Assembly: GCA_017428925.1 (NCBI GenBank)
Contig: JAFRPY010000035.1
Span: 1-64,000, forward strand
DNA from: Prevotella sp.
GTDB lineage: Bacteria > Bacteroidota > Bacteroidia > Bacteroidales > Bacteroidaceae
Reading direction: 5' to 3'
DNA: 64,000 bases
The notes beneath the pieces were generated by a model. That model was given only the letters and a program-made list of their open reading frames with translations, made no database searches and had not been told where the DNA came from. Within the stretch, counting starts at the first letter, position 1, and each line of letters begins with the position of its first letter. Shown here in pieces: positions 22,096-34,719 of the stretch. The translations under genes were made by a program, and so were the position numbers.

Positions 22096-23916
22096 ATGAA
22101 GAACTATCCGAAAATTGGCATCCGGCCGACCATAGACGGTCGCCAGGGTGGTATCCGCGAGAGCCTTGAAGAGAAGACCATGAGTCTGGCCAAGGCCGTG
22201 AAGGAACTTATTGAATCAAACCTGCGTAACGGCGATGGCTCGCCCGTAGAGTGTGTCATTGCCGACACCACGATAGGCCGCGTGGCCGAGAGTGCCGCCT
22301 GCGCCGAGAAATTCGAGCGCGAGGGCGTGGGGTCAACCATCACCGTCACCTCTTGCTGGTGCTATGGTTCCGAGACGATGGACATGAATCCGTACTATCC
22401 CAAGGCCGTATGGGGCTTCAACGGAACGGAGCGCCCCGGAGCCGTCTATCTGGCTGCCGTGTTGGCCGCCCATGCCCAGAAGGGCCTGCCCGCATTTGGT
22501 ATCTATGGCCATGATGTGCAAGACCTTTCCGACAATACTATTCCCGCCGATGCCGCCGAGAAGATTCTCCGCTGGGCCCGTGCCGCCCAGGCCGTAGCCA
22601 CCATGCGCGGACAGTCGTATCTCTCGATGGGTAACACCTGCATGGGTATTGCCGGAAGTATTGTCGATGCCGATTTCTTCCAGGACTATTTCGGCATGCG
22701 TACCGAATATGTTGACCTCGTGGAGATTCTCCGCCGCGTGGATTTCGGCATCTACGACCAGGATGAGTTCAAGAAGGCCATGAAGTGGGTGGACAAGTAT
22801 TGCAAGCCCCAGGAAGGCCACGACTATAACGAAGACCGCCCGCTATTCCCCGGCACGCCCATGACCACCTACAACGGAAAGGGCAAGGGCAAGAACCGCC
22901 AGGAGAAGGACGCCGACTGGGAGTTCACCGTGAAGTGCATGATGATTATCCGCGACCTGATGCACGGCAATCCGCGACTGGCCGAGATGGGTTATTTCGA
23001 AGAGGCCAAGGGCCACAATGCCATCCTCGGCGGCGTGCAGGGACAACGCCAGTGGACTGACTACAAGCCCAACTTCGACTTCCCCGAGTCGATGATGTGC
23101 ACTTCGTTCGACTGGAACGGCATCCGCGAGGCCGATGTGCTGGCCACCGAGAACGACTCCCTGAACGGCATCTCGATGCTCTTCGGCCACCTGCTCACCA
23201 ACCGCGGCGTGATGTTCTCCGACATCCGTACCTACTGGAGTCCTGAAGCCGTGGAGCGTGTCACGGGCAAGAAGCCCGAAGGTGCTGCCGCCGGCGGATT
23301 CATCCACCTCATCAACTCAGGAGCCACCACACTCGATGCCACCGGAGCCATGTCCGACAAGGAGGGCAACCCCGTGATGAAACCCCATTGGGAGATGACC
23401 GAAGAGGATGCCGAAGCCTGTCTGAAGGCCACCTCATGGATGCCTGCCGACCGCGACTACTTCCGTGGAGGCGGCTATTCCAGCCATTTCCTCACCCGCG
23501 GCGGAATGCCGATGACCATGATGCGCGTCAACATCGTGAAGGGCCTCGGCCCTGTGCTTCAGTTGGCCGAAGGATGGACCGTGAGCCTCGATCCCGAGGT
23601 GAACGACATCCTCGACAAGCGCACAGACCCCACATGGCCCACCACCTGGTTTGCCCCGCGCCTTGACCCGTCGAAGGATGCCTTCAAGGACGTCTATTCC
23701 GTGATGAACAACTGGGGAGCCAACCACGGTGCCATCGCCTACGGCCACATCGGAGCCGACGTCATCACGCTCTGCTCCATGCTCCGCATTCCCGTCTGCA
23801 TGCACAACATCAAGGACGAAGACATCTTCCGTCCCGCCTGCTGGAATGCCTTCGGTATGGACAAGGAAGGCGCCGACTATAGGGCATGTAAGAATTTCGG
23901 GCCGGTGTATAAATAA
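22096..23916 (+). CDS. fucI: L-fucose isomerase
   Basis: A 606-residue enzyme that interconverts L-fucose and L-fuculose (and D-arabinose and D-ribulose), Mn2+-dependent. '[20 protein letters not shown]' near 6-25 is the N-terminal family block, '[17 protein letters not shown]' near 56-72 and '[20 protein letters not shown]' near 110-130. Catalytic Glu/Asp residues of the family lie in 'CTSFDWNG'- and 'ATENDSLNG'-type blocks (about 335-360). It is followed by fucP. No fuculokinase or fuculose-phosphate aldolase gene is nearby, so catabolism must be finished by genes elsewhere. A weak promoter-like TATCTTTA is at 22057-22064. Confidence 0.95.
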
Positions 23917-23917
23917 G

Positions 23918-23951
23918 AAGACCCTCCCCCGCCCTCCCTATAGGGAGGGAG
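23918..23951 (-). repeat. GC-rich hairpin/G-run repeat, copy D
   Basis: Palindrome CCCTCCCTA/TAGGGAGGG at 23932-23949, with the G-run tail and GGGTCTT reading out on the minus strand. It starts two bases after the fucI stop and may serve as its terminator. Confidence 0.8.
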
Positions 23952-24033
23952 CAAATACTCTTTTTGCGGAGTGGAATGTGGTGAGAATTTTAGTGATAAG
24001 AAATAAAAATAACAATCAAATAACAATAAAACC

Positions 24034-25407
24034 ATGAATAGCAATCAAAGTACAAAAGATACTTCCCCCCTCCCTTCGGGAGGGGCTGGGGGTGGGTTTG
24101 AGGGTTCCGGTTCTGGTTCCTCTGTCGTCCCCTCTCACTTTCTCATCCCCTTCATCCTCGTCACCCTCTGCTTCGCCCTCTGGGGCTTTGCCAACGACAT
24201 CACCAACCCGATGGTGAAGGCCTTCTCGAAGATTTTCCGCATGAGCGTCACCGAGGGCGCTTTGGTTCAGGTGGCCTTCTACGGCGGCTATTTCTGCATG
24301 GCCTTCCCCGCCGCCATGTTCATCCGCAAGTTCTCCTACAAGTCGGGCGTGCTGATGGGCCTCGGGCTTTATGCCACGGGCGCGCTGCTCTTCTTCCCGG
24401 CGAAGATGGTGGGCGTGTATGGCTGTTTCCTCATCGCCTATTTCATCATGACCTGCGGACTCTCGTTCCTTGAGACCTCCTGCAACCCCTACATCCTCAC
24501 GATGGGCTCCGAAGAGACCTCCACGCGCCGACTGAACATGGCCCAGTGCTTCAACCCCTGCGGCTCCATCATCGGCATGTATGTGGCCATGAACTTCATC
24601 CAGGCGCGGCTCAACCCGATGTCGTCGGCCGAGCGTGCCAACCTCTCTGAAGCACAGTTCGACGCGATGAAGGAATCCGACCTCTCGGTGCTCATCTCGC
24701 CCTATCTGGCCATCGGACTGGTCATCGTGGCCATGTTCCTCGTCATCCTGCTCGTGAAGATGCCTAAGAACGGCGACCAGAACAAGGAAATCCATTTCAT
24801 GTCCACGCTCCGCCGCATCTTCTCGCTGAAATACTACCGCGAGGGCGTCATTGCCCAGTTCTTCTACGTCGGTGCACAAATCATGTGCTGGACTTTCATC
24901 ATCCAGTACGGCACCCGCGTGTTCATGGCCGAGGGCATGGGCGAGCAGGCCGCCGAAGTGCTCTCCCAGCGCTTCAACATTGCCGCCATGCTGCTGTTCA
25001 TCTGCTCGCGTTTCGTGGCCACCTACCTGATGAAATACGTCAATCCCGCCCGTCTTTTGGCAGCCTTTGCCATCGGCGGCATGATCTGCACGCTGGGCGT
25101 CATCCTCTTCCAGAACCGCCTCGGCATGTACTGCCTGGTGGCCGTCAGCGGCTGCATGTCGCTCATGTTCCCCACCATCTACGGCATTGCCTTGAAGGGC
25201 CTCGGCGACGATGCCAAGTTCGGTGCCGCCGGACTCATCATGGCCATCCTCGGCGGAAGCGTGCTGCCCCCGTTCCAGGCCGCCATCATCGACCAGGGCA
25301 CCCTCTTCGGTTCCTTCCCCGCCACCAACGCCTCGTTCATCCTGCCCTTCATCTGCTTCGTCGTGGTCTGTGCGTATGGCATGCGGATGAATAAGGCGCG
25401 GCAATGA
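24034..25407 (+). CDS. fucP: L-fucose:H+ symporter
   Basis: A 457-residue major-facilitator sugar transporter with about 12 hydrophobic helices. The first helix, 'ILVTLCFALWGFANDITNPMV' region (about 42-62), carries the Asn-Asp motif of FucP, in which the Asp takes part in proton coupling. 'LETSCNPYI' near 149-157 is a further family block. The cytoplasmic N-terminal tail (residues 11-30) is Gly/Ser/Pro-rich and is encoded by an in-frame copy of the hairpin/G-run repeat (24067-24122). No later in-frame ATG would keep the first helix. It follows fucI after about 115 bases. Confidence 0.93.
   Translation: MNSNQSTKDTSPLPSGGAGGGFEGSGSGSSVVPSHFLIPFILVTLCFALWGFANDITNPMVKAFSKIFRMSVTEGALVQVAFYGGYFCMAFPAAMFIRKFSYKSGVLMGLGLYATGALLFFPAKMVGVYGCFLIAYFIMTCGLSFLETSCNPYILTMGSEETSTRRLNMAQCFNPCGSIIGMYVAMNFIQARLNPMSSAERANLSEAQFDAMKESDLSVLISPYLAIGLVIVAMFLVILLVKMPKNGDQNKEIHFMSTLRRIFSLKYYREGVIAQFFYVGAQIMCWTFIIQYGTRVFMAEGMGEQAAEVLSQRFNIAAMLLFICSRFVATYLMKYVNPARLLAAFAIGGMICTLGVILFQNRLGMYCLVAVSGCMSLMFPTIYGIALKGLGDDAKFGAAGLIMAILGGSVLPPFQAAIIDQGTLFGSFPATNASFILPFICFVVVCAYGMRMNKARQ
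24067..24122 (+). repeat. GC-rich hairpin/G-run repeat, copy E, inside fucP
   Basis: CCCCTCCC (24067-24074) pairs with GGGAGGGG (24078-24085), followed by G-runs to 24096 and a tail with TCCGGTTCT. The copy is in frame and encodes residues about 12-30 of FucP. The tail is shared with copy F at 25485. Confidence 0.85.
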
Positions 25408-25484: not shown

Positions 25485-25538
25485 CCCCTCCCTTCGGGAG
25501 GGGCGGGGGTGGGTGTTAAGGCTCCGGTTCTTCCTCTT
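25485..25538 (+). repeat. GC-rich hairpin/G-run repeat, copy F, overlapping the HU-like gene end
   Basis: CCCCTCCC (25485-25492) and GGGAGGGG (25496-25503) form a hairpin, then G-runs to 25513 and a tail with CTCCGGTTCTTCCTC. The tail contains the stop codon (25516-25518) and last codons of the minus-strand HU-like gene. The hairpin lies between converging fucP and HU-like genes. Confidence 0.85.
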
Positions 25539-25983
25539 TCCCGCGTTCCTCAATCTCCTTCGCGCTCACCAGGCTGGCTGCACTCTGGTAGGTCATGCCC
25601 TGGATCATCTTCTTGATGCGCTTGTGGGTAGAGGGGTCGGTGGTCACCTCGGGCTGGAACAGCACGCGGCAGCTGCGTATGTTCTCGTTGGCGTTGAAGT
25701 CGGCCGGAGTTTCGGCTCCCTTCGAGCTGATGCCGATTTTGAAGGTGCCGAAGCCGTCGATGTGGACGCGCTTGGAGGCCTTGAGGGCGTCGCTGACCAC
25801 TTCCACCATTTCAACGAGCACGGCGTAGGCGTCGGACTTCTTTGCGGTGGAGTTGCGCTGAATCAGCTCGGCAATGTCCATCAGGTTGATGGTCTCGGTG
25901 TAGACTGGGCGAGCGAACCATTTCTGGTAGCACTTCACCATGTTTTCGTTCATGTTCTGAACAAGTTTGTACAAATGTGCCAT
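25516..25983 (-). CDS. HU-related DNA-binding protein (HU-HIG type)
   Basis: A 155-residue nucleoid-type protein. The N-terminal part (about 1-45) is the extra segment found in Bacteroidales HU-related proteins (TIGR01201-like). The HU/IHF fold follows, with 'VVSDALKASKRVHIDGFGTFKIGISSKG' split over about 62-90 as the dimer and strand region. The C-terminal tail is acidic (EEEPEP), and its last codons and stop are supplied by repeat copy F. In Bacteroides, genes of this kind commonly neighbour VirE_N/DUF3987 genes; such genes lie 6 kb away here at 31.8-34.6 kb. It has its own promoter at 26192-26223 and a leader of about 200 bases. Confidence 0.87.
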   Translation of the reverse strand: MAHLYKLVQNMNENMVKCYQKWFARPVYTETINLMDIAELIQRNSTAKKSDAYAVLVEMVEVVSDALKASKRVHIDGFGTFKIGISSKGAETPADFNANENIRSCRVLFQPEVTTDPSTHKRIKKMIQGMTYQSAASLVSAKEIEERGKEEEPEP

Positions 25984-26361: not shown

Positions 26362-26376
26362 TATAAAGATATTACT

Positions 26377-26424
26377 CCCCTCCATTTAGGGAGGGGCAGG
26401 GGGTGGGTCTGTAGGGTCTGGAGG
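26377..26424 (+). repeat. GC-rich hairpin/G-run repeat, copy G
   Basis: CCCCTCC (26377-26383) pairs with GGAGGGG (26390-26396). Four G-runs at 26389-26407 have loops of 1, 2 and 1 bases. Then GGGTCTGTAGGGTCTG follows, as in copy B. Confidence 0.85.
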
Positions 26425-26460
26425 CCTCGGGGTGGTGTGTCTCTGAGGTATCTCTGTAGT

Positions 26461-26485
26461 TATATTGCATATTGCATATTGCATA
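26461..26485 (+). repeat. ATTGCAT heptad repeat, left outer copy
   Basis: TAT followed by three ATTGCAT units (26464-26484). The same orientation occurs at 34621-34651, and the opposite orientation at 26621-26645. Confidence 0.85.
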
Positions 26486-26609
26486 CAAAAATTTTTGTAA
26501 GTGCTGGAAAAAGTGTTAATATATGTATATAATATTATATATATTATTAATAATCAATTACTTATATAATTCTATTATCATTTTTTAACTCATTTTCTTC
26601 CTCTTAGTG

Positions 26610-26655
26610 AAAAAAACGAACGCAATATGCAATATGCAATATAGCGTAGTCAGCG
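26610..26655 (-). repeat. ATTGCAT heptad element, left inverted copy
   Basis: Read on the minus strand: CTGAC, three bases, GCTAT, ATTGCAT x2, ATTGCG, TTCG and seven T. The element at 34612-34662 reads the same on the plus strand with one extra heptad. The two copies face each other across 8 kb. Confidence 0.85.
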
Positions 26656-26714
26656 GGCAAAAATTTAATGTGTAAATTTCCGCTCGTATTCTTTTTATTA
26701 TCGAAAAGAAATTG

Positions 26715-26722
26715 TATCTTTG
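26715..26722 (+). promoter_or_regulatory. -7 element of the restriction-modification gene
   Basis: TATCTTTG, 21 bases before the ATG at 26744; a clear TTTG at -33 is missing. The element covers the upstream in-frame TTG at 26720, which argues against that start. Confidence 0.65.
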
Positions 26723-26743
26723 TCGCTAAAAATAGCATATTCT

Positions 26744-29659
26744 ATGAAAACTGAAAAGCAGATGGCTGCCGCCGCCGCTGAGTTCGCGGAGCGATGGAAA
26801 GACAGAGGTTATGAGAGAGGGGAGTCGCAACCCTTCTGGATTGACCTGCTGAGCAATGTCTTTGGCATTGAAACGCCGTCGGACGGCTTCATCACCTTTG
26901 AAGACCATCGCATGGTTGACGCTTCCAACTTCATCGACGGGCGCATCCGTTCCACCCGTGTACTGATAGAGCAGAAGTCGCTGGGCAAGGACTTGCGGGC
27001 AGGCATACGCCAGAGCGACGGCTCACTGTTGAATCCCTTCCAGCAGGCGCGCCGCTATGTGGTCAGCCTTCCTGTCTCCGAGCATCCGCGCTGGATTGTG
27101 ACGTGCAACTTCTCCGAGTTCCTGGTCTACGACATGGAGCAGCCCAACGGCGAGCCAGAACAGATACTTTTAGAGAACCTGGGCAAGGAATACTACCGCC
27201 TGCTGTTCCTTGTCGACGAGAAGAGCGAGCATCTTTCCAAGGAGATGGAAGTCTCGATGCAGGCCGGCGAGATTGTGGGAAAGATTTACGATGCTTTGCT
27301 GAAGCAGTACGACGACAACTCCGCCGAAGCCCTGCGGTGGCTGAATATCCTTTGCGTGCGCATCGTGTTCTGCCTGTATGCCGAGGATGCAGGGGTGTTC
27401 ACTCACGACCAGTTCCACGACTACCTTGTCACCTACGAGGCCAAGGATCTGCGCCGTGCATTGCGCGACCTTTTCGAAGTATTGAACACGCCCTTAGAGA
27501 AGCGCAGCAAGTATCTGCAGGACGACCTGAAAGCCTTCCCCTATACCAACGGCGGACTGTTTGAAGAGGAAATCGAGATACCGCAGTTCACTGAGCAACT
27601 GAAGCAGACGCTACTGCAGAATGCCTCTTTGGATTTCGATTGGAGCGAGATATCGCCCACCATCTTCGGAGCCGTCTTCGAGAGCACGCTGAATCCCGAG
27701 ACCCGCCGTTCCGGTGGCATGCACTACACATCGATAGAGAATATCCACAAGGTGATAGACCCGCTGTTCTTGAACGACCTGCGCTGCGAACTCGACGAGA
27801 TTCTGGAGGAAAAGGTAGAGCGCCAGCGCCAGAAGAAACTCGATGCCTACCAGGACCGTCTGGCCTCGCTCACATTCTTAGACCCTGCCTGCGGTTCAGG
27901 TAATTTCCTCACCGAGACCTATCTTTCACTCCGCCGTCTAGAGAACGAGGTTATCCGTGAGCGCCACCACGGCCAGTCGTTCCTTGGTTTCGAGGAGGTG
28001 AATCCCATCAAGGTCAGCATCCAGCAGTTCTACGGCATCGAAATCAACGACTTTGCCGTTACCGTTGCCACCACTGCCCTATGGATCAGCGAGGCCCAGA
28101 TGCTTGCCGAGACCGAGAAAATCATCCGCCGCGACATCGACTTCCTGCCGCTGAAATCATACACCAACATCCGCGAGGGCAATGCCCTTAGGATGGATTG
28201 GGACGTGATAGAACTACCTTCTGACATTCCTACGATACATGCCAAGAATGTTCACTTGATTATTGAGCCTGAGCCCATGAAGGCAAGCGAGCCTATTGTT
28301 GAATACGATGAAGTCAATGTAGTAACCCGTCGTTTCGATGGCGAGGTGACGCCCAGCAAGAAACGCTATCAAGTCAAATTTGACTATATCATGGGTAATC
28401 CTCCGTTTGTAGGTGCAAATATAATGAACGACGAACAGCGTGCTGACCTTAGACATATTTTGGGGACAAAATGGAAGAATATTGGAGAAATGGACTATGT
28501 GACTGGCTGGTACAAAAAAGCATCACAATTATTGACAGGCACAAAGATTCGAGCGGCCCTTGTGTCCACCAACAGCATCTGCCAAGGTGAGCAAGTGGCT
28601 AATCTTTGGAAACCACTCTTTGAGCAGGAAGGTATCCATATAGATTTTGCATATCGTACATTTCGTTGGGATAGCGAAGCTTCGCTCAAAGCTCACGTAC
28701 ATTGCGTAATTGTTGGTTTTAGCTATACAAATGAGAAAACCTCGAAGAGAATCTATGATAACAATGTAGAACGAGAAGCCAAGAACATCAATGCTTATCT
28801 CATGGATGCTCCTGATGTCTTCATAGAAAGTCGTAATAAACCTTTGTTCGACGTTCCTGTAATTCGTAAGGGTAATCAGCCAACGGACGGGGGAAACCTA
28901 ATTATCGAAGAATCAGAACTAAATGCTTTTCTTGCCCGAGAACCAAAGGCTGAGAAGTTCATTAAGCGATTAATCGGCTCCAAAGAATATATTAACAATA
29001 AGCCTCGTTATTGCTTATGGTTGAAAGATGCTTCACCTGCAGAACTTAGGCAAATGCCTGCTGTTATAGAGCGCATGGAGGGTGTACGCAAAATGCGTGA
29101 GTCAAGTAGTGATGCCGCAACAAGAAGGTTGGCTGATACTCCACATTTATTCAGAGAAACGAATAATCCTGAAACCTACATTATTGTTCCTTCTGTTTCC
29201 TCAGAACGAAGGCGTTATGTTCCAATGGGTTTCCTAACAGCGGATACTATCCCCACAAATCTTGTTCTTATTATTCCAGATGCAAGTCTTTATCATTTTG
29301 GTGTTCTTACATCAAATGTACACATGGCATGGATGAGAGCAGTGTGCGGAAGATTGAAGAGCGATTATCGCTATAGCAAGGATATCGTCTATAACAATTT
29401 CCCCTGGCCTAATCCTACGGACGAGCAGAAGGCAAAGATTGAGCAGACGGCACAAGCGATTCTCGATGCCCGAGCCCTTTATCCCGACTCCTCGCTGGCA
29501 GACCTCTATGATGAACTGACCATGCCCGTAGAACTGCGCCGTGCCCATCAGGACAACGACCGCGCCGTGATGCAGGCCTATGGCTTCCCCGTCAAGTCCA
29601 TGACCGAAAGCCAGTGCGTAGCCGAATTATTCAAACTATACCAAGAATTAACGAAATAA
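26744..29659 (+). CDS. Type IIL (MmeI-like) restriction-modification enzyme
   Basis: A 971-residue single-chain enzyme that would both methylate adenine on one strand and cut DNA at a distance. The N-terminal nuclease motif is Asp65, ten residues, Glu76-Gln-Lys78 (D..EXK, as in MmeI). A helical linker runs to about 330. The methyltransferase has motif I DPACGSGNF at 380-388 and motif IV NPPF at 552-555. The target-recognition domain should lie about 600-850, with a C-terminal helical part. Base composition changes within the gene: 27781-27840 is 34/60 G+C, 28681-28740 only 22/60, and 29521-29580 is 39/60. This suggests the recognition part was exchanged by recombination. Two unknown genes follow, the first after four bases. 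All key motifs are intact. Confidence 0.88.
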   Translation: MKTEKQMAAAAAEFAERWKDRGYERGESQPFWIDLLSNVFGIETPSDGFITFEDHRMVDASNFIDGRIRSTRVLIEQKSLGKDLRAGIRQSDGSLLNPFQQARRYVVSLPVSEHPRWIVTCNFSEFLVYDMEQPNGEPEQILLENLGKEYYRLLFLVDEKSEHLSKEMEVSMQAGEIVGKIYDALLKQYDDNSAEALRWLNILCVRIVFCLYAEDAGVFTHDQFHDYLVTYEAKDLRRALRDLFEVLNTPLEKRSKYLQDDLKAFPYTNGGLFEEEIEIPQFTEQLKQTLLQNASLDFDWSEISPTIFGAVFESTLNPETRRSGGMHYTSIENIHKVIDPLFLNDLRCELDEILEEKVERQRQKKLDAYQDRLASLTFLDPACGSGNFLTETYLSLRRLENEVIRERHHGQSFLGFEEVNPIKVSIQQFYGIEINDFAVTVATTALWISEAQMLAETEKIIRRDIDFLPLKSYTNIREGNALRMDWDVIELPSDIPTIHAKNVHLIIEPEPMKASEPIVEYDEVNVVTRRFDGEVTPSKKRYQVKFDYIMGNPPFVGANIMNDEQRADLRHILGTKWKNIGEMDYVTGWYKKASQLLTGTKIRAALVSTNSICQGEQVANLWKPLFEQEGIHIDFAYRTFRWDSEASLKAHVHCVIVGFSYTNEKTSKRIYDNNVEREAKNINAYLMDAPDVFIESRNKPLFDVPVIRKGNQPTDGGNLIIEESELNAFLAREPKAEKFIKRLIGSKEYINNKPRYCLWLKDASPAELRQMPAVIERMEGVRKMRESSSDAATRRLADTPHLFRETNNPETYIIVPSVSSERRRYVPMGFLTADTIPTNLVLIIPDASLYHFGVLTSNVHMAWMRAVCGRLKSDYRYSKDIVYNNFPWPNPTDEQKAKIEQTAQAILDARALYPDSSLADLYDELTMPVELRRAHQDNDRAVMQAYGFPVKSMTESQCVAELFKLYQELTK

Positions 29660-29663
29660 AAAT

Positions 29664-30515
29664 ATGATACAGACACAGTTATTGAGACTCGACCCGCCCT
29701 ACCAGATAATATCTGCCGGTGGGCGCGTGGGAATACAGGTTGCAACCCTGATAGTTGTTGAAGAACCATCCCCTGTAGCTATCGAAAGAAGAACAGGCCG
29801 TGCATTGGGCTATGGGCCCATGAAATGCCGTAGTTATCCCGTGGTTAACTATGGGCTGAAACAAGGACTTGAGGAGCAGATGAAATATCAGAACAACTCA
29901 TTGGACTATGAAGCAGATTGGGCTATCCAAAGGCGTATGCAGCCCGAAGGAGCCGTGTGGTCTGGGGTTGATGTAAAGGACGTGAAGGTGCTGGGATTAG
30001 CAGGAGCGAATAATGACCCCGTGGGACTTGAACAATTTATATATCTGATTCCAACCGTCTGGAGAACAGACCCAAGCCTTCGTTTATGGGACAAGAACTC
30101 CACATCGCGCTTATACGATCTATATGCAGGACTTGGTAATGTTGGATTGAAGACCCAAAAACTAATTGCAGATCATCTTAATGACAAAAATGTCTTCCCC
30201 ATCAGACTTGATCTGGAACAGAAACCCTCGTCAGACGGATTCTATATAAAGGTAGTAATAAGAGAGGATATTAATGCTCAGCCGTGGGAAATGGACAGGA
30301 ATGTTTTCTTCAGATGTGTAATCGAACTCTCTAAGCCTGACAGCATAAGTGAATGTGCGACTACTATCCTCGAAGGTGTTCAAGGCATTAGGGATTTTCT
30401 GCCCACATGGAATGTTGATTTCATTGGGAGGCAATCAGTGAAGCAAGGAGATAAGATTTGGGCTGATGCCATGAAACAATTGCTTTCACTCGTAAAAGTC
30501 AACTACAAGGGATAA
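29664..30515 (+). CDS. Unknown protein cotranscribed with the restriction enzyme
   Basis: A 283-residue soluble protein that I do not recognise. It starts four bases after the restriction-modification stop, so it is almost certainly in the same transcript. There is no signal peptide, membrane segment or known catalytic motif. The sequence looks alpha/beta, with a Gly-rich 'ISAGGRVGIQVATLIVVEE' region near 15-33, 'GLAGANNDPVGLEQFIY' near 110-126 and a more hydrophilic C-terminal half (about 165-260). It could be an accessory to the defence enzyme (specificity, control or anti-toxin role) or cargo. No function is claimed. Confidence 0.75.
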   Translation: MIQTQLLRLDPPYQIISAGGRVGIQVATLIVVEEPSPVAIERRTGRALGYGPMKCRSYPVVNYGLKQGLEEQMKYQNNSLDYEADWAIQRRMQPEGAVWSGVDVKDVKVLGLAGANNDPVGLEQFIYLIPTVWRTDPSLRLWDKNSTSRLYDLYAGLGNVGLKTQKLIADHLNDKNVFPIRLDLEQKPSSDGFYIKVVIREDINAQPWEMDRNVFFRCVIELSKPDSISECATTILEGVQGIRDFLPTWNVDFIGRQSVKQGDKIWADAMKQLLSLVKVNYKG

Positions 30516-30530
30516 TCTCTTTTGGCAAAG

Positions 30531-31187
30531 ATGACTGATTTTATTGTCAAAGCAGTAAAAATAGACGGCTTGAACTGGCCTCTGCGTGCTCTGCTACAAA
30601 GTCTCGACAGCCCTGAGCTGGGCGAGACGGAGTGGTGGCGTCGTATGGCGGTTATGCAGAATGCGGCAGCCCGTGCAGGTGACCAGAAGTTGCTTGGCGC
30701 TCTTGACAATAAGAAGGAAGAACGATATGGTAGCCGTTTCGAGGCTCCGGAGGTTGTAACCCTAAACAATCTGCCTGCGCTTTCGGTTGAAGAGAGTGTT
30801 AAGCGATGGTTCCAAGACCTAAACCAAGAGAAACGGCAGGAAGTATTAAAGCATGCTATGGGCACTCTGCTTGAAACTCCGGATAATGATAGCGGAAAGA
30901 AATTGTTCTCAAAGAAGCAGCATTGGATGGCGGTCTATATGGTGTTGCGCGACCGATTGGGGTTGCTCACCAAGCACAATGAATTTCATACCTATGCTGC
31001 CAAGATTACTCCCGACACTTGTCCTGCTAAACTCAGGATATCTTCTTCGACGATGACTAACTTCTCGAAGACTGTGCCTGAGGGGCAATATTTTAAGATA
31101 AAGAACAACCCGTTCCATGAGCATTGTTCCGTTTTGTGGACAATCATTAAGGACATCTATTATTCTAAGGTTTTTACTAACGAATAG
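30531..31187 (+). CDS. Unknown protein, third gene of the restriction operon
   Basis: A 218-residue basic, soluble protein with no family I can name. ATG at 30531 was preferred over TTG at 30522; the gap to the previous gene is 15 bases. The N-terminal half is helical ('DGLNWPLRALLQSLDSP' near 10-26, then a Trp-Trp-Arg-Arg cluster). The C-terminal third has Lys, His and aromatic residues ('FKIKNNPFHEHCSVLW', about 190-205). Its stop codon lies inside a perfect 9-bp inverted repeat (31170-31194). It may act with the previous gene or belong to the replication-like genes downstream. Confidence 0.72.
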   Translation: MTDFIVKAVKIDGLNWPLRALLQSLDSPELGETEWWRRMAVMQNAAARAGDQKLLGALDNKKEERYGSRFEAPEVVTLNNLPALSVEESVKRWFQDLNQEKRQEVLKHAMGTLLETPDNDSGKKLFSKKQHWMAVYMVLRDRLGLLTKHNEFHTYAAKITPDTCPAKLRISSSTMTNFSKTVPEGQYFKIKNNPFHEHCSVLWTIIKDIYYSKVFTNE

Positions 31188-31243
31188 TAAAAACTAGCAA
31201 TAATTTTACTAATACTTTTGCTTTCTTTACTACGGCTTACTAA
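31170..31243 (+). repeat. Phased TTACTA iteron-like repeats with an inverted repeat
   Basis: TTACTA[AC] occurs at 31174, 31206, 31227 and 31237; the steps of 32, 21 and 10 bases are close to 3, 2 and 1 DNA turns. A reversed copy (TAGTAA) is at 31185-31190, part of a perfect 9-bp inverted repeat (31170-31178 and 31186-31194). This could be an origin-type iteron set or a regulator-binding array just upstream of the next promoter. Confidence 0.6.
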
Positions 31244-31246
31244 TAA

Positions 31247-31278
31247 GTTGTAGGGCTGTTTTTTTTTATTTTCCTTTG
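31247..31278 (+). promoter_or_regulatory. Probable promoter of the primase-helicase operon
   Basis: GTTG (31247-31250), 20 bases, TTCCTTTG (31271-31278), one base short of the consensus at each element. It lies directly after the phased repeats and 30 bases before the start at 31308. Confidence 0.5.
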
Positions 31279-31307
31279 CATCAACAAAACTTTTAATAGA
31301 TTAGAAT

Positions 31308-31820
31308 ATGAATACAGACAACGTCACTTACGTCACTCGGCCTAGGACAAAGCCAGAGTCGACAACGCGAGGAAAATTGAACGAATGGGCAAATGGCTAC
31401 AAGGAATTTGTTCCACAAGGCCAGAAACCGAGTAACAGAACCATGCTGAAGCAAGTGGGCGGCAGCAGCTTCTACAAGAGCGAGGGCGCGAAGGAATCTT
31501 CCTATTCGTTGCATCTGAACGTGGATGCAAAGGACTGCGAGGACCCCGTGGCTGCATTGCACGAGCAGTTCCTCTTTTTAACGAAGGGAGAACAAAAGCA
31601 ACTGCCGCTGATGCCTGAGGGCAGTCGTGGTCAGATGCTGATGGACGATGGAATCGTGAAGATCTGGATGGACAACGAGAACGGGAAACTGACGATTATG
31701 GCCGAACTGGAGTGTTCGCCACAAATTGAGCGGCAACTGCTGCAGGCTCAGTCCAGGATGAACGTCTGCATCGGTCGCCATCGCACGGAGATACTGAACA
31801 ATAAGAAGGACAATAAATAA
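31308..31820 (+). CDS. Unknown protein, first gene of the primase-helicase operon
   Basis: A 170-residue soluble protein. Residues 1-55 are basic and polar (likely flexible, possibly nucleic-acid binding); about 60-150 look like an alpha/beta domain with 'KIWMDNENGKLTIMAELE' strands. The C-terminus is Lys/Asn/Asp-rich. I recognise no domain. It is followed after 12 bases by the primase-like gene, so it probably works in the same replication or maintenance process. A small accessory or single-strand-binding role is only a guess. Confidence 0.72.
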   Translation: MNTDNVTYVTRPRTKPESTTRGKLNEWANGYKEFVPQGQKPSNRTMLKQVGGSSFYKSEGAKESSYSLHLNVDAKDCEDPVAALHEQFLFLTKGEQKQLPLMPEGSRGQMLMDDGIVKIWMDNENGKLTIMAELECSPQIERQLLQAQSRMNVCIGRHRTEILNNKKDNK

Positions 31821-31832
31821 TGGTAGACGCGT

Positions 31833-32603
31833 ATGAATAAGAATTGGCGATTCGTTTGGCAAGAAAACATGTACTGGGCTTCGTGCGAACCCTGTACGCT
31901 CGCGGTGTTCAACACGCTGGTGAGCGCCGCCGTTGTGAACTGGAAAATCAATATGCGGCGGGCTGTGAGAAAGGCCATCATGGAGGGAAAACCACTGGAT
32001 GAGTTTACGCGACTGAGCGAATTCCAGCAATGGTGCTACAAGATGCAAAGCCGACCACGGGCAGGCGAGAAGTTCGGTATGCTTACCACGGCGGCCAAAT
32101 TGTTGCAATGGGTTGATGCGCTGAAGAGCAGCCTGCCGTGTTTTGTATTTGCGGTCAGGGAGTTCGGGCTGGTACCAAGAACCGACAAGAACGGACAACC
32201 GAAACTTGACCCTCAGGGCGCTCCCTTCCTCTACCGCCGACGCAAGCAGTCGAACATCAAGCACCTTTCAGGATTGTTCATGAGCGACTTCGACCACTTG
32301 CCTTTCCCACCACAGGAACTCTACGAACTGACCCGCCGCCCAGGCTATCCGTGGAAGACGCGGCTGGCACACCTGACATCGTCGGGCGAAGGGCTGCGGC
32401 TGGTGAGTGAGTGCATCCCCGGGGCAGGCAACATAGCCGACCAGCAGTACCTGCAGGCCAAGGAACTGGGAATGCTGGAGGTAAAGGGAACGACGGGTAA
32501 ATTCGTAACGGACAACTCGTGCATCAACGCCGATAAGCTGTCGTTCTGCCCACGCTTGGATGATATTCTATATGCTGATGAAGATAAACTTTTTAATTAT
32601 TAA
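31833..32603 (+). CDS. BT4734/VirE_N-type primase-polymerase-like protein
   Basis: A 256-residue protein resembling the VirE N-terminal/BT4734-like family, which has a primase-polymerase (archaeo-eukaryotic primase) fold. The acidic metal-binding motif is Asp152-Phe-Asp154-His (SDFDHL). A Ser-Ser-Gly-Glu-Gly block ('TSSGEGLRLV', near 188-197) and the C-terminal 'SCINADKLSFCPR' block (near 229-241) match the usual order of this family. In many Bacteroidota proteins this domain is joined to a helicase-like domain; here the helicase is a separate gene starting three bases later. DNA synthesis activity is inferred, not shown. Confidence 0.72.
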   Translation: MNKNWRFVWQENMYWASCEPCTLAVFNTLVSAAVVNWKINMRRAVRKAIMEGKPLDEFTRLSEFQQWCYKMQSRPRAGEKFGMLTTAAKLLQWVDALKSSLPCFVFAVREFGLVPRTDKNGQPKLDPQGAPFLYRRRKQSNIKHLSGLFMSDFDHLPFPPQELYELTRRPGYPWKTRLAHLTSSGEGLRLVSECIPGAGNIADQQYLQAKELGMLEVKGTTGKFVTDNSCINADKLSFCPRLDDILYADEDKLFNY

Positions 32604-32606
32604 AAT

Positions 32607-34616
32607 ATGGAAGAACAAAAACTTTTTGACAATGAGTTCGACCGTCAGTATGGCGACTCATACCGCAACGAGTGTAGTAACGCCACAAGTCCCGACCATG
32701 TGTTGCCAGGCAATACGGAGGCCGAGACCAGCGGCAAGTCATTACCCCCAAATCCATCGCAGGCTGACGACCAGGAAACGGCCAAGGAACTGGCAGCGCA
32801 GTTGAAGCCTAAGGAGCAGCAACAAGATCTGAATGTGTTCGGCAACTCTGTGATTGACTACGTCAATGCGATGTTGCCCAATGGTGCTCCCGAAGGCTCA
32901 CGACACAAGTTTGCGCTGAAGGTGGCCACCGATGCCATCATCCTCTACGACGGCGATATGGAGCGCGTCAGGAGCCTGCTGCTGGCTTTGCCGTGGGTAC
33001 AGGAGATTATCTCGGAACGTGGACTCTCAGAGATAGACAGCCCCAGCGGCATCATTGCCACCGCCAAGAAACGCATGGAGAAACGAGAGGCCGAGAACCT
33101 GAACGACCCTCAGCCCTCGAAGGAGATGCGCCGTGCCATCGAGCAGGTGACGGGCAGTAAATACAGCGTGCTGCTTCGTGAAGAACACGGCAGGGTGATG
33201 GGTAAGGTGACTGCTGCTCAGGGTGACATCCTGCAGGTGCTGGGGCGCGTGGGCAGCGAACTGAAAAAGTTCAGTGCGAAATACCCGCTGCTGGAACTGC
33301 TCTGCTTCCGCCTGAAAGAGAAGTTTTATCCAGCGGTGTTCTTCGTGGGCGGCTCTTTCGCTATGACCTTGATGACGCGCTGCTGGTACTATTTCTGGCC
33401 GAAGCCGGGCAAGCGGAACCGACTGAACAGTCTGGTGCTGCTGATTGGAAGGATGGGCGGCATGAAATCGGTGGCCGTTGACCTCTACGACATTCTGATG
33501 GAACCTGTCAGAAGAGCAGATGCCGCCCAGATTGAAGCCTTGAACCGCTACAATGCCGAGCGCGAGCAGAACAACGGCGGTGCCAAAAACAAGACTCCAC
33601 GGCCACAGGGCATCTACCGGGCACTGCCGCCTGAAACCTCAACGGCAGCCCTGCGTGAGGCCGAGGCCAATGCCCACGAGACAATTGACGGTGAGGAGGT
33701 TTACCTGCACGTCAGCGTTTTCGACTCAGAACTCCAGAACACGCTCTCGCAGATGAAGAAGGGCTACATGGACGCGCTGCAGACCTATTGGCTGAAGTCG
33801 TTCCATGCCGAGAAACACGGGGCCTACCTGAAAACCAGCAATGCCCCCATCGGTGAAAGCCCGGTGCATTTTTCGGCGGTTTACACCGGAACAGACGTTG
33901 CAATGAGAGCCCTCAACACGGAGAAGACTTGTGTGAACGGATTAATGTCGCGCTTTACGGCTGTGCCCAATGCCGACTCAAACTTTGAGATGCTTGAGGT
34001 TCACGACTACGACGAGGCGGCAGGGAAAAGGGATGCCGAACTGAAGGAGTGGGCCTACCGATTGGACGGCTGCAAGGGCGAGATTCCGTGCAAACTTATC
34101 AGCGATGCCCTGAAGGCCTGGACAGCCCGACGCATGGCCGATGCAGGGGAGGATAGGGATTATGCCGAGGAAGACTTGGTGAAGCGTCCCTGCTGGCATG
34201 CCATCAACTTCGTGCTGCCATTCGTGGTGAGCCGCCATTGGGACAAGATGATTCAGGACGAGGACGGGCGATGGAAATGCGGTCCCGGCTTCAAGGTTGA
34301 CCAGACCGATGTGAGGCTTGCACAGCTTATCGCCAACACCCAACTGGCTTTCCAGGAATACTACTGTAAGGGCATTCTGGAGAAGCATTACGACGACATG
34401 GCAGCCGAGCGCGCCTCGAACGTGCGTCATCAGCAGAAGACATTGCTGGCCTATCGCCGTCTACCTGAAATCTTCACCAGCGACGACGTGAAGCGTGAGT
34501 ATGGCTACAACAGTATTGGCAGCGTGTGCAGTCGTCTGAAGCATCTACAAGACGATGGTTTGGTCAAGAAAATCCGAACAGGACAGGAAAAAGGAAAATA
34601 CCGCAAGTTGACCTGA
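32607..34616 (+). CDS. DUF3987-like (VirE/SF3-type) helicase-like protein
   Basis: A 669-residue protein with an acidic, Gln-rich N-terminus (about 1-90), an alpha-helical middle and an ATPase-like core. The P-loop position reads GRMGGMKS (281-288), in which Met286 replaces the last Gly of the Walker A consensus. 'YLHVSVFDSELQNTL' (near 370-385) could be the Walker B strand. The C-terminal 80 residues look like a winged helix ('FTSDDVKREYGYNSIGSVCSRL'-type region, about 627-650). It fits DUF3987 proteins, often paired with VirE_N primases in Bacteroides mobile and capsule-associated loci. The altered P-loop may mean weak or no ATP binding. Confidence 0.7.
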   Translation: MEEQKLFDNEFDRQYGDSYRNECSNATSPDHVLPGNTEAETSGKSLPPNPSQADDQETAKELAAQLKPKEQQQDLNVFGNSVIDYVNAMLPNGAPEGSRHKFALKVATDAIILYDGDMERVRSLLLALPWVQEIISERGLSEIDSPSGIIATAKKRMEKREAENLNDPQPSKEMRRAIEQVTGSKYSVLLREEHGRVMGKVTAAQGDILQVLGRVGSELKKFSAKYPLLELLCFRLKEKFYPAVFFVGGSFAMTLMTRCWYYFWPKPGKRNRLNSLVLLIGRMGGMKSVAVDLYDILMEPVRRADAAQIEALNRYNAEREQNNGGAKNKTPRPQGIYRALPPETSTAALREAEANAHETIDGEEVYLHVSVFDSELQNTLSQMKKGYMDALQTYWLKSFHAEKHGAYLKTSNAPIGESPVHFSAVYTGTDVAMRALNTEKTCVNGLMSRFTAVPNADSNFEMLEVHDYDEAAGKRDAELKEWAYRLDGCKGEIPCKLISDALKAWTARRMADAGEDRDYAEEDLVKRPCWHAINFVLPFVVSRHWDKMIQDEDGRWKCGPGFKVDQTDVRLAQLIANTQLAFQEYYCKGILEKHYDDMAAERASNVRHQQKTLLAYRRLPEIFTSDDVKREYGYNSIGSVCSRLKHLQDDGLVKKIRTGQEKGKYRKLT

Positions 34617-34662
34617 CGTGCTATATTGCATATTGCATATTGCATATTGCATTCGTTTTTTT
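34612..34662 (+). repeat. ATTGCAT heptad element, right copy
   Basis: CTGAC, two bases, GCTAT, four ATTGCAT units (34624-34651), TCG and seven T. The element overlaps the helicase-like stop codon (34614-34616). It is the inverted counterpart of 26610-26655. Confidence 0.85.
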
Positions 34663-34667
34663 ACAAT

Positions 34668-34700
34668 AAAGGGCAGGCAGCATAACGCCACTTGCCCTTT
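34668..34700. terminator. Hairpin between helicase-like gene and uvrA
   Basis: AAAGGGCA (34668-34675) pairs with TGCCCTTT (34693-34700) across a 17-base loop. It lies between converging genes and could end both transcripts. Confidence 0.6.
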
Positions 34701-34719
34701 TGGTGATTTCCCCCTCGTT

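Follow-up and report, generated by a model that had tools for sequence, protein, structure and literature searches.

What are the short repeats that bracket a block of six genes in a Prevotella sp. genome, and what do they mark? The block lies in a stretch of 64,000 nucleotides (GenBank assembly GCA_017428925.1, contig JAFRPY010000035.1, positions 1 to 64,000), referred to here as the window, and encodes a restriction-modification enzyme, a primase-like protein (P0005), a helicase-like ATPase (P0006) and three further proteins (P0002 to P0004). A first-pass annotation, made from the sequence, had suggested an inserted unit with inverted ends, adding the caution that the repeat might simply be a common intergenic one. 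We found that the block does belong to a recurrent, repeat-marked unit but that its ends are not those of a transposon, as a two-armed element lies on the left and a single array on the right. Most likely, the repeats serve the cassette's own replication helicase as initiator sites, and are not the inverted ends of a transposon. No description of this system was found in searches of the open literature, though we do not claim that it is absent from print.

Layout and recurrence of the repeats

The ATTGCAT heptads, the TTCGTTTTTTT tail and the opposite orientation of the copies can all be read directly in the window sequence, and the six genes lie between the left and right repeats as first described. 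When ATTGCATATTGCAT was searched for with up to two mismatches, seven matches were found in the window compared with 0.68 expected, and none of 100 shuffles reached seven. The layout is, however, a different one. Repeats are present at 26461 and at 26610–26655, where separate copies had been seen, but they are the inverted arms of one element, and the repeat at 34622–34662, taken for the right-hand end, is a lone single array and not an inverted terminal end (Table 1). The two-armed element is a quasi-palindrome, with a 70% match to its own reverse complement across 183 bp. Its T-runs point inward and the heptads of the single array face the gene side, and this orientation of the arms and array rules out the terminal inverted repeats of a transposon. 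Hairpins similar to the terminator-like one that follows the array in the window were seen 3' of the array at several other loci.

The caution about a common intergenic repeat can be set aside. In the window's own genome (G000; 3.56 Mb, 85% complete) the exact 14-mer was found at four places only, namely in the two-armed element and the lone arm of the window and on contigs C28 and C49. It is thus not a high-copy intergenic repeat, and a simple high-copy repeat was ruled out on this ground. The C28 copy (G000:C28:19529-19720) is itself two-armed and 90% identical to the window element over 192 bp, while the C49 occurrence falls within an open coding frame and is probably due to chance. For the unit on contig C41 of the same genome, the repeat was found at two places only, its element and its array.

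Of 24 genomes of the genus, this one included, 11 had relatives of P0006, compared with 0 of 16 genomes from other families of the order. In a scan of named genomes the best 80 of 423 P0006 relatives were analysed and were divided, by identity to P0006 and not by a tree, into clade i (L079–L119; 41 loci with a split primase and helicase, at least 47% identity) and clade ii (L120–L158; 39 loci, at most 39% identity, with fused proteins of 818–914 aa in the 12 for which lengths were seen). The recurrent order is two-armed element, cargo (often restriction genes), P0004, primase, helicase and array. A full two-armed element was present at 33 loci, made up of 31 of the 41 clade-i loci, the window and L064, the second unit of the window's own genome. 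The profile used to find them was made from ten two-armed elements, four of which are among the 33 (window, L064, L079, and L088 via L021), so detection of those four was favoured.

All 21 clade-i scan loci whose sequence extends 9 kb or more upstream of the helicase stop contain the element, and the ten clade-i loci that lack a full element start at most 7.3 kb upstream of it; one of these has half an element at the contig edge. The 33 elements are 176–226 bp in length, have a core A+T content of 0.73–0.85 and lie 4.1–8.9 kb upstream of the helicase stop, and the single array is a median of 4 nt 3' of that stop. A crude tandem score of at least 12 was obtained after the helicase stop in 30/80 cases compared with 60/591 other open reading frame (ORF) ends, a weak measure because spacing is mixed and the control includes spurious antisense ORFs. 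An unbiased detector of two-armed elements gave two inverted and no direct matches in 246 kb, and the density estimate was dropped because of its poor recall (6/35). The suggestion that the element might mark other gene blocks was borne out, in that the unit adjoins different genes in different species, with different cargo; it is neither at the same place in all relatives nor are its repeats at hundreds of intergenic sites.

In clade ii, additional array matches on both strands within the available flanks were found at just 3 of 39 loci (L130, L131 and L134), with matches on one strand at L139 and L156, and one genome has the element 12 kb upstream of the helicase. A gene with a phage-type endolysin/peptidase-like start often follows the array at clade-ii loci (L120, L124, L128, L136 and others). 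Prevotella sp. ne3005 has a further array and a further two-armed element of the same unit, 385 bp from each other (G216:C8:206777-207177; L209, L211), on a contig that differs from that of the helicase bearing this array.

Matched repeats and the helicase C-terminus

The repeat sequence differs among many units (ATATTGG in L113, TGTGCAAA in L103 and ATATTCAA in L099), with some repeat types common to several of them. Within a unit, the three sets agree. The array scored a mean of 23.2 in local comparison with its own right arm and 13.7 with those of other units (0/10000 permutations, 33 loci), and the array-left and left-right comparisons had the same outcome. The unit's own partner came out as the single best of the 33 candidates 16, 13 and 8 times, the median rank being 1, 1 and 2 (with 0 as best). 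The expected orientation beat the reverse in 33/33 units, and the match beat 200/200 shuffles.

The sequence of the repeats also follows that of the end of the helicase. The alignment of the P0006 family has a conserved terminal segment that resembles a winged helix as read from the sequence, and in clade i (n=32) iteron distance correlated with distance over P0006 residues 628–649 (r 0.338, 0/5000 permutations; partial r 0.33 given the core, 0/5000), in permutation tests that model descent only in part. The top five of 59 sliding windows along the helicase start at residues 595–639. As the array adjoins the codons of the C-terminal domain, linkage could mimic covariation, and the test was rerun with the distant arms. 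The arms, which are 4–9 kb away, gave partial r values of 0.374 (right) and 0.324 (left), with 0/3000 permutations each and the same top five windows, so linkage between array and domain is not the cause. With the untrimmed array, partial r was 0.351 and the top three windows were C-terminal.

The same was seen in clade ii, where an array was obtained from 37 of 39 loci and 34 were left once near-duplicates had been removed (partial r 0.47, 0/3000; top five of 79 windows C-terminal). Between-clade pairs alone gave r 0.284 (15/5000) with near-duplicates kept, the peak lying over the putative recognition helix. L103 and L134, which belong to different clades, both have NSxNSKIRRL and share TGTGCAAATGTGCAAA. 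The tail of the helicase thus probably reads the matching repeats.

These results bear on the alternative that a common intergenic repeat flanks the genes by accident. Copies outside the block do exist, but the repeat has only four places in 3.56 Mb, the element is at a fixed position in 21/21 testable loci, repeat sequences are matched within units and they covary with the helicase; we consider an accident extremely improbable.

A candidate replicon and its alternatives

The anatomy of the unit and the covariation of its repeats with the helicase agree better with an origin and an additional initiator site than with the ends of a transposon. On balance we think it probable that the block is an integrated replicon-like island, with P0006 as a self-loading initiator whose matched iterons lie at an origin and one further site. 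Through its C-terminal winged helix, this initiator helicase would read short iterons that differ from one island to the next. The origin would be the two-armed element that precedes the operon, probably bent by HU, and its AT-rich core would melt once helicase was bound on both sides, to be primed by the BT4734-like primase. A second helicase-loading or copy-control site would be provided by the single array that immediately follows the helicase gene. Such an island would carry exchangeable cargo, often restriction-modification genes and here type IIL, between origin and replication genes, and its replication might be used for spread or for bursts in copy number. This suggests that the cassette can start the copying of its own DNA, though no gene for moving it was found.

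We offer a wider proposal only tentatively. Recombinase-free chromosomal replicons of Prevotella-like bacteria may have a helicase winged helix and octamer iterons that co-diverge, with a readable protein–DNA code that is convergent between two clades. Their initiator would act on its own two sites and, in trans, on orphan origins as well, by which restriction systems would be spread and parasites consisting of an origin alone would be seeded. If the unit is a replicon, the BT4734/DUF3987-like primase-helicase genes of these gut bacteria would gain an initiator role with mapped binding sites, the spread of restriction systems would be linked to a replicon, and dispersed two-armed repeats would be explained as origins or origin-derived elements. 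It would also extend the origin type of the phage-inducible chromosomal islands (PICI) to units without a known integrase, and a recognition code could be derived from dozens of natural helicase-iteron pairs.

Several known systems resemble the unit in part, as far as the available portions of the papers cited describe them. A comparison of PICI origins gives two iteron sets around an AT-rich region, with the origin 3' of rep (PMC6092414). The Rep of the Staphylococcus aureus pathogenicity islands (SaPI) has C-terminal origin recognition, and in pattern 2 of the staphylococcal cassette chromosome (SCC) mec elements the C-terminal domain of Cch2 binds a three-iteron region just downstream of its gene (PMC7581432). 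Like PICI and SaPI, the units described here have a primase and a putative initiator helicase, two iteron sets around an AT-rich region (33 elements) and C-terminal origin recognition, which is putative here and rests on covariation. They differ from PICI, whose origin is directly 3' of the initiator gene, in the position of the two-armed element far upstream of the helicase stop, in the extra single array 3' of the helicase, in cargo that is often restriction-modification and in a primase of the BT4734 kind, and no integrase or excisionase was found. The likeness to SCCmec pattern 2 lies in a helicase followed by a short iteron array and in an operon with a small protein and a primase. The primase is of another type, however, a second, two-armed site is present and no Ccr large serine recombinase was found by Pfam among the scanned unit, neighbour and cargo proteins. 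As no recombinase was found, the unit was not classed as a PICI or an SCC.

The alpha protein of satellite P4 is a primase-helicase-initiator that acts on two separate iteron sites (ori and crr), and is likened to P0006 by description only; P4 has an integrase, and none was found in the window unit. The DUF3987/VirE ATPases associated with archaeo-eukaryotic primases (AEP) are likewise predicted to act as helicases of mobile elements, and winged helices have been proposed as their means of recognising an origin (PMC5862659). Matched iterons are not mentioned in the available part of that paper, and P0006 has no Pfam family match.

A number of observations weigh against a replicon. The array's own arm was the single best match at just 16/33 loci, as several units share a repeat type. 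The core of the helicase also correlates with the iterons, weakly in clade i (r 0.141, 17/5000; 0.118 given the C-terminus, 59/5000) and with r 0.247 in clade ii. Residues 281–288 of P0006 are GRMGGMKS, lacking the GK expected of a Walker A motif, a feature shared by 6/43 aligned rows; the family has GRSGSGKH at this position in 13/43 rows, K287 is invariant across the 43, and some members of the family may have an altered ATPase. A third, distant helicase of the same genome, on contig C53, has an array (G000:C53:59911-59933) whose matching two-armed element is on another contig, C28. The repeat occurs there in one arm of an element recognised by eye (G000:C28:78687 region, L295), and a reversed-pattern control likewise gave two matches; an array and element on separate contigs are not predicted by a cis origin.

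The gene content and the genomic context also count against it. No integrase, recombinase or excision gene was found with Pfam in the six genes of the unit or in ten neighbour genes, which agrees with the absence of an integrase and transposase from the block reported in the first-pass annotation, and there was likewise none among the 25 Pfam families listed, of 27, for 61 cargo proteins. P0006 had no match in the plasmids or viral contigs searched and a clade-ii protein had none in the phages searched, though one clade-ii-like locus was found when viral contigs were searched with A2, an alignment of P0006 relatives. No empty site was found for the whole unit, as its two flanking genes, fucP and uvrA, are on different contigs in the three close relatives examined (G347, G334 and G357), and none was found for the G357 unit, whose flanks are on different contigs in G334 and G347. 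With flanks unlinked in the relatives examined, and the comparison confounded by genome rearrangement and by the fragmentation of metagenome-assembled genomes, simple insertion cannot be demonstrated. Finally, among 20 regions chosen from BLAST matches, 12 contain a complete two-armed element, and nine of these 12 lack the module although the side where genes would lie extends for approximately 8 kb or more, while two have it.

One alternative dispenses with replication, making the winged-helix helicase an autoregulator and the element and array operators of the restriction operon. Restriction genes need tight control upon entering a new host, and the first rightward ORF of at least 70 aa begins 16–116 bp past the two-armed element in 26/33 units, with what is presumably a promoter-like box between the element and the first gene in the window. 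We nonetheless regard this as unlikely, because it accounts neither for the AT-rich core of about 110 bp nor for inverted iteron sets of the PICI-origin kind, and leaves unexplained why a primase and helicase share the operon and why two-armed elements are found far from any such operon.

Lone elements give room both to the operator model and to an element that is derived from an origin or resembles a miniature inverted-repeat transposable element (MITE), as do the more distant helicases of other genomes, which often have no array. In the MITE model the helicase protein recognises the arms of the two-armed element and mobilises it, and the island is the autonomous copy. The element's inverted iteron arms would serve as terminal inverted repeats. 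In the close relative G347, the corresponding intergenic region does not contain the lone C28 copy (256 bp correspond to 111 bp). G044 carries two copies of 93% identity at separate sites, and its helicases are all distant ones; the single helicase end seen there has no array. However, no target duplication could be read at the G347 site, which is too diverged, and one lone copy is common to G334 and G357 at the same site, within an 8.4-kb stretch of 96% identity, so at least that copy is stable. As the window unit also contains no transposase (Pfam) and its arms and array are wrongly arranged for terminal repeats of a gene block, we judge the MITE model improbable, more so than operators, and retain the replicon-like island.

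Not every element that appears alone need be so. The last of the 12, in G032 (contig C54, L193), lies 1.3 kb from a contig end and has an HU-like gene in the other direction; it is probably part of the G032:C70 unit cut by the assembly, as its repeat matches that complete unit. The helicase of the C70 unit (L217) has an uninterrupted frame of 670 codons and is the same as that of locus L105. In G347, a two-armed element of another repeat unit (GTGACTTT and inverted AATGTCAC) adjoins uvrA (L283:1700-1930), on the uvrA side where the window carries its unit. Two other dispersed elements were set apart by description, from the available parts of their papers. PINSR of Prevotella intermedia is likewise short (188 bp) but has no terminal inverted repeats (PMC4755523), and the BrickBuilt MITE of Porphyromonas gingivalis has internal 23-nt repeats and IS-like ends (PMC4596501).

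Genes, cargo and neighbours

Features of the unit and its surroundings are listed in Table 1.

Table 1. Repeats, genes and predicted features in and beside the window unit
Feature	Position	Strand	Basis or remark
HU-family DNA-binding protein gene, outward-pointing	25516..25983	-	TIGR01201 HU_rel E 3.3e-17, under cut-off
Two-armed element, inverted ATATTGC iteron sets around AT-rich core, proposed origin	26458..26648	.	
Left iteron set, three rightward ATATTGC heptads	26461..26485	+	
AT-rich core with TTATTAATAATCAATTACTTATATAA, proposed melting region	26498..26608	.	111 bp, A+T 0.829
Right iteron set, three leftward heptads, then inward TTCGTTTTTTT	26620..26646	-	
TATCTTTG, promoter-like box	26715..26722	+	Presumed likeness to the Bacteroidales -7 box TAnnTTTG
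Type IIL restriction-modification enzyme, MmeI family, cargo	26744..29659	+	Pfam, PADLOC REase_MTase_IIG
P0002, homologues in other units	29664..30515	+	
P0003, homologues in two other loci	30531..31187	+	
P0004, small conserved protein, gene before primase	31308..31820	+	
Primase-like P0005, BT4734-like AEP N-terminal domain	31833..32603	+	PF08800
Helicase-like ATPase P0006	32607..34616	+	
Putative winged helix-turn-helix at P0006 C-terminus, proposed iteron reader	34440..34613	+	Fold read from sequence
Solo iteron array, four ATATTGC heptads and TTCGTTTTTTT, few bases 3' of helicase stop	34622..34662	+	
Terminator-like hairpin, between array and uvrA	34669..34702	-	Read from sequence

The MmeI-family enzyme is complete, with the N-terminal, helicase-spacer, methyltransferase, target recognition and C-terminal domains (PF20464, PF20465, PF20473, PF20466 and PF20467) all over the cut-off. 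P0002 matched no family in Pfam, PADLOC, PHROGs or NCBIfam, and P0003 matched nothing over the curated cut-off in the same four. The match of P0005 to PF08800 has an E value of 5.4e-7 and 30.2 bits (cut-off 22.4), and primase activity is predicted. P0006 is related to fused primase-ATPase proteins, and one such protein of clade ii matches DUF3987 weakly, under the cut-off. A sequence search of the PDB gave one match only (E 0.8). The ten neighbour genes, about five on each side, are of ordinary metabolic, membrane, repair and tRNA-synthetase types.

The genes between the element and P0004 differ from unit to unit. An MmeI homologue was present in 9/33 units, and a Pfam scan of 61 of the 92 cargo ORFs, which omitted seven MmeI homologues, the window's own two and various short or reverse ORFs, found the families NgoMIV, MvaI/BcnI, DpnI, Eco57I-type, and C5 and N4/N6 methyltransferases. 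One of the 61 proteins was of the TnpB type, and one had a weak match to a phage scaffold family (E 9e-5). In the G357 unit, which is the closest relative of the window unit, a TnpB-like gene takes the place of that for MmeI; this gene (IS605 OrfB; L079:2828-4231) is in the first cargo position, directly behind the two-armed element. A homologue with 74% identity to the window enzyme is found alone on a 3.2-kb contig of the same genome (G357:C154, L266), and no two-armed element was found in the 400 bp preceding it.

An HU-like gene was found within 1.5 kb on 12/37 right sides and 8/24 left sides of clade-i units, and points outward in all 20, compared with 2 places in 203 kb of control sequence and 0/31 clade-ii right sides. 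A GC-rich dispersed repeat of about 40–50 bp, around CTCCCTCCATTTAGGGAGGGGC, occurs in the window at 1597–1644, 23915–23960, 24055–24105 and 26371–26411, and has many occurrences in the relatives G334, G347 and G357.

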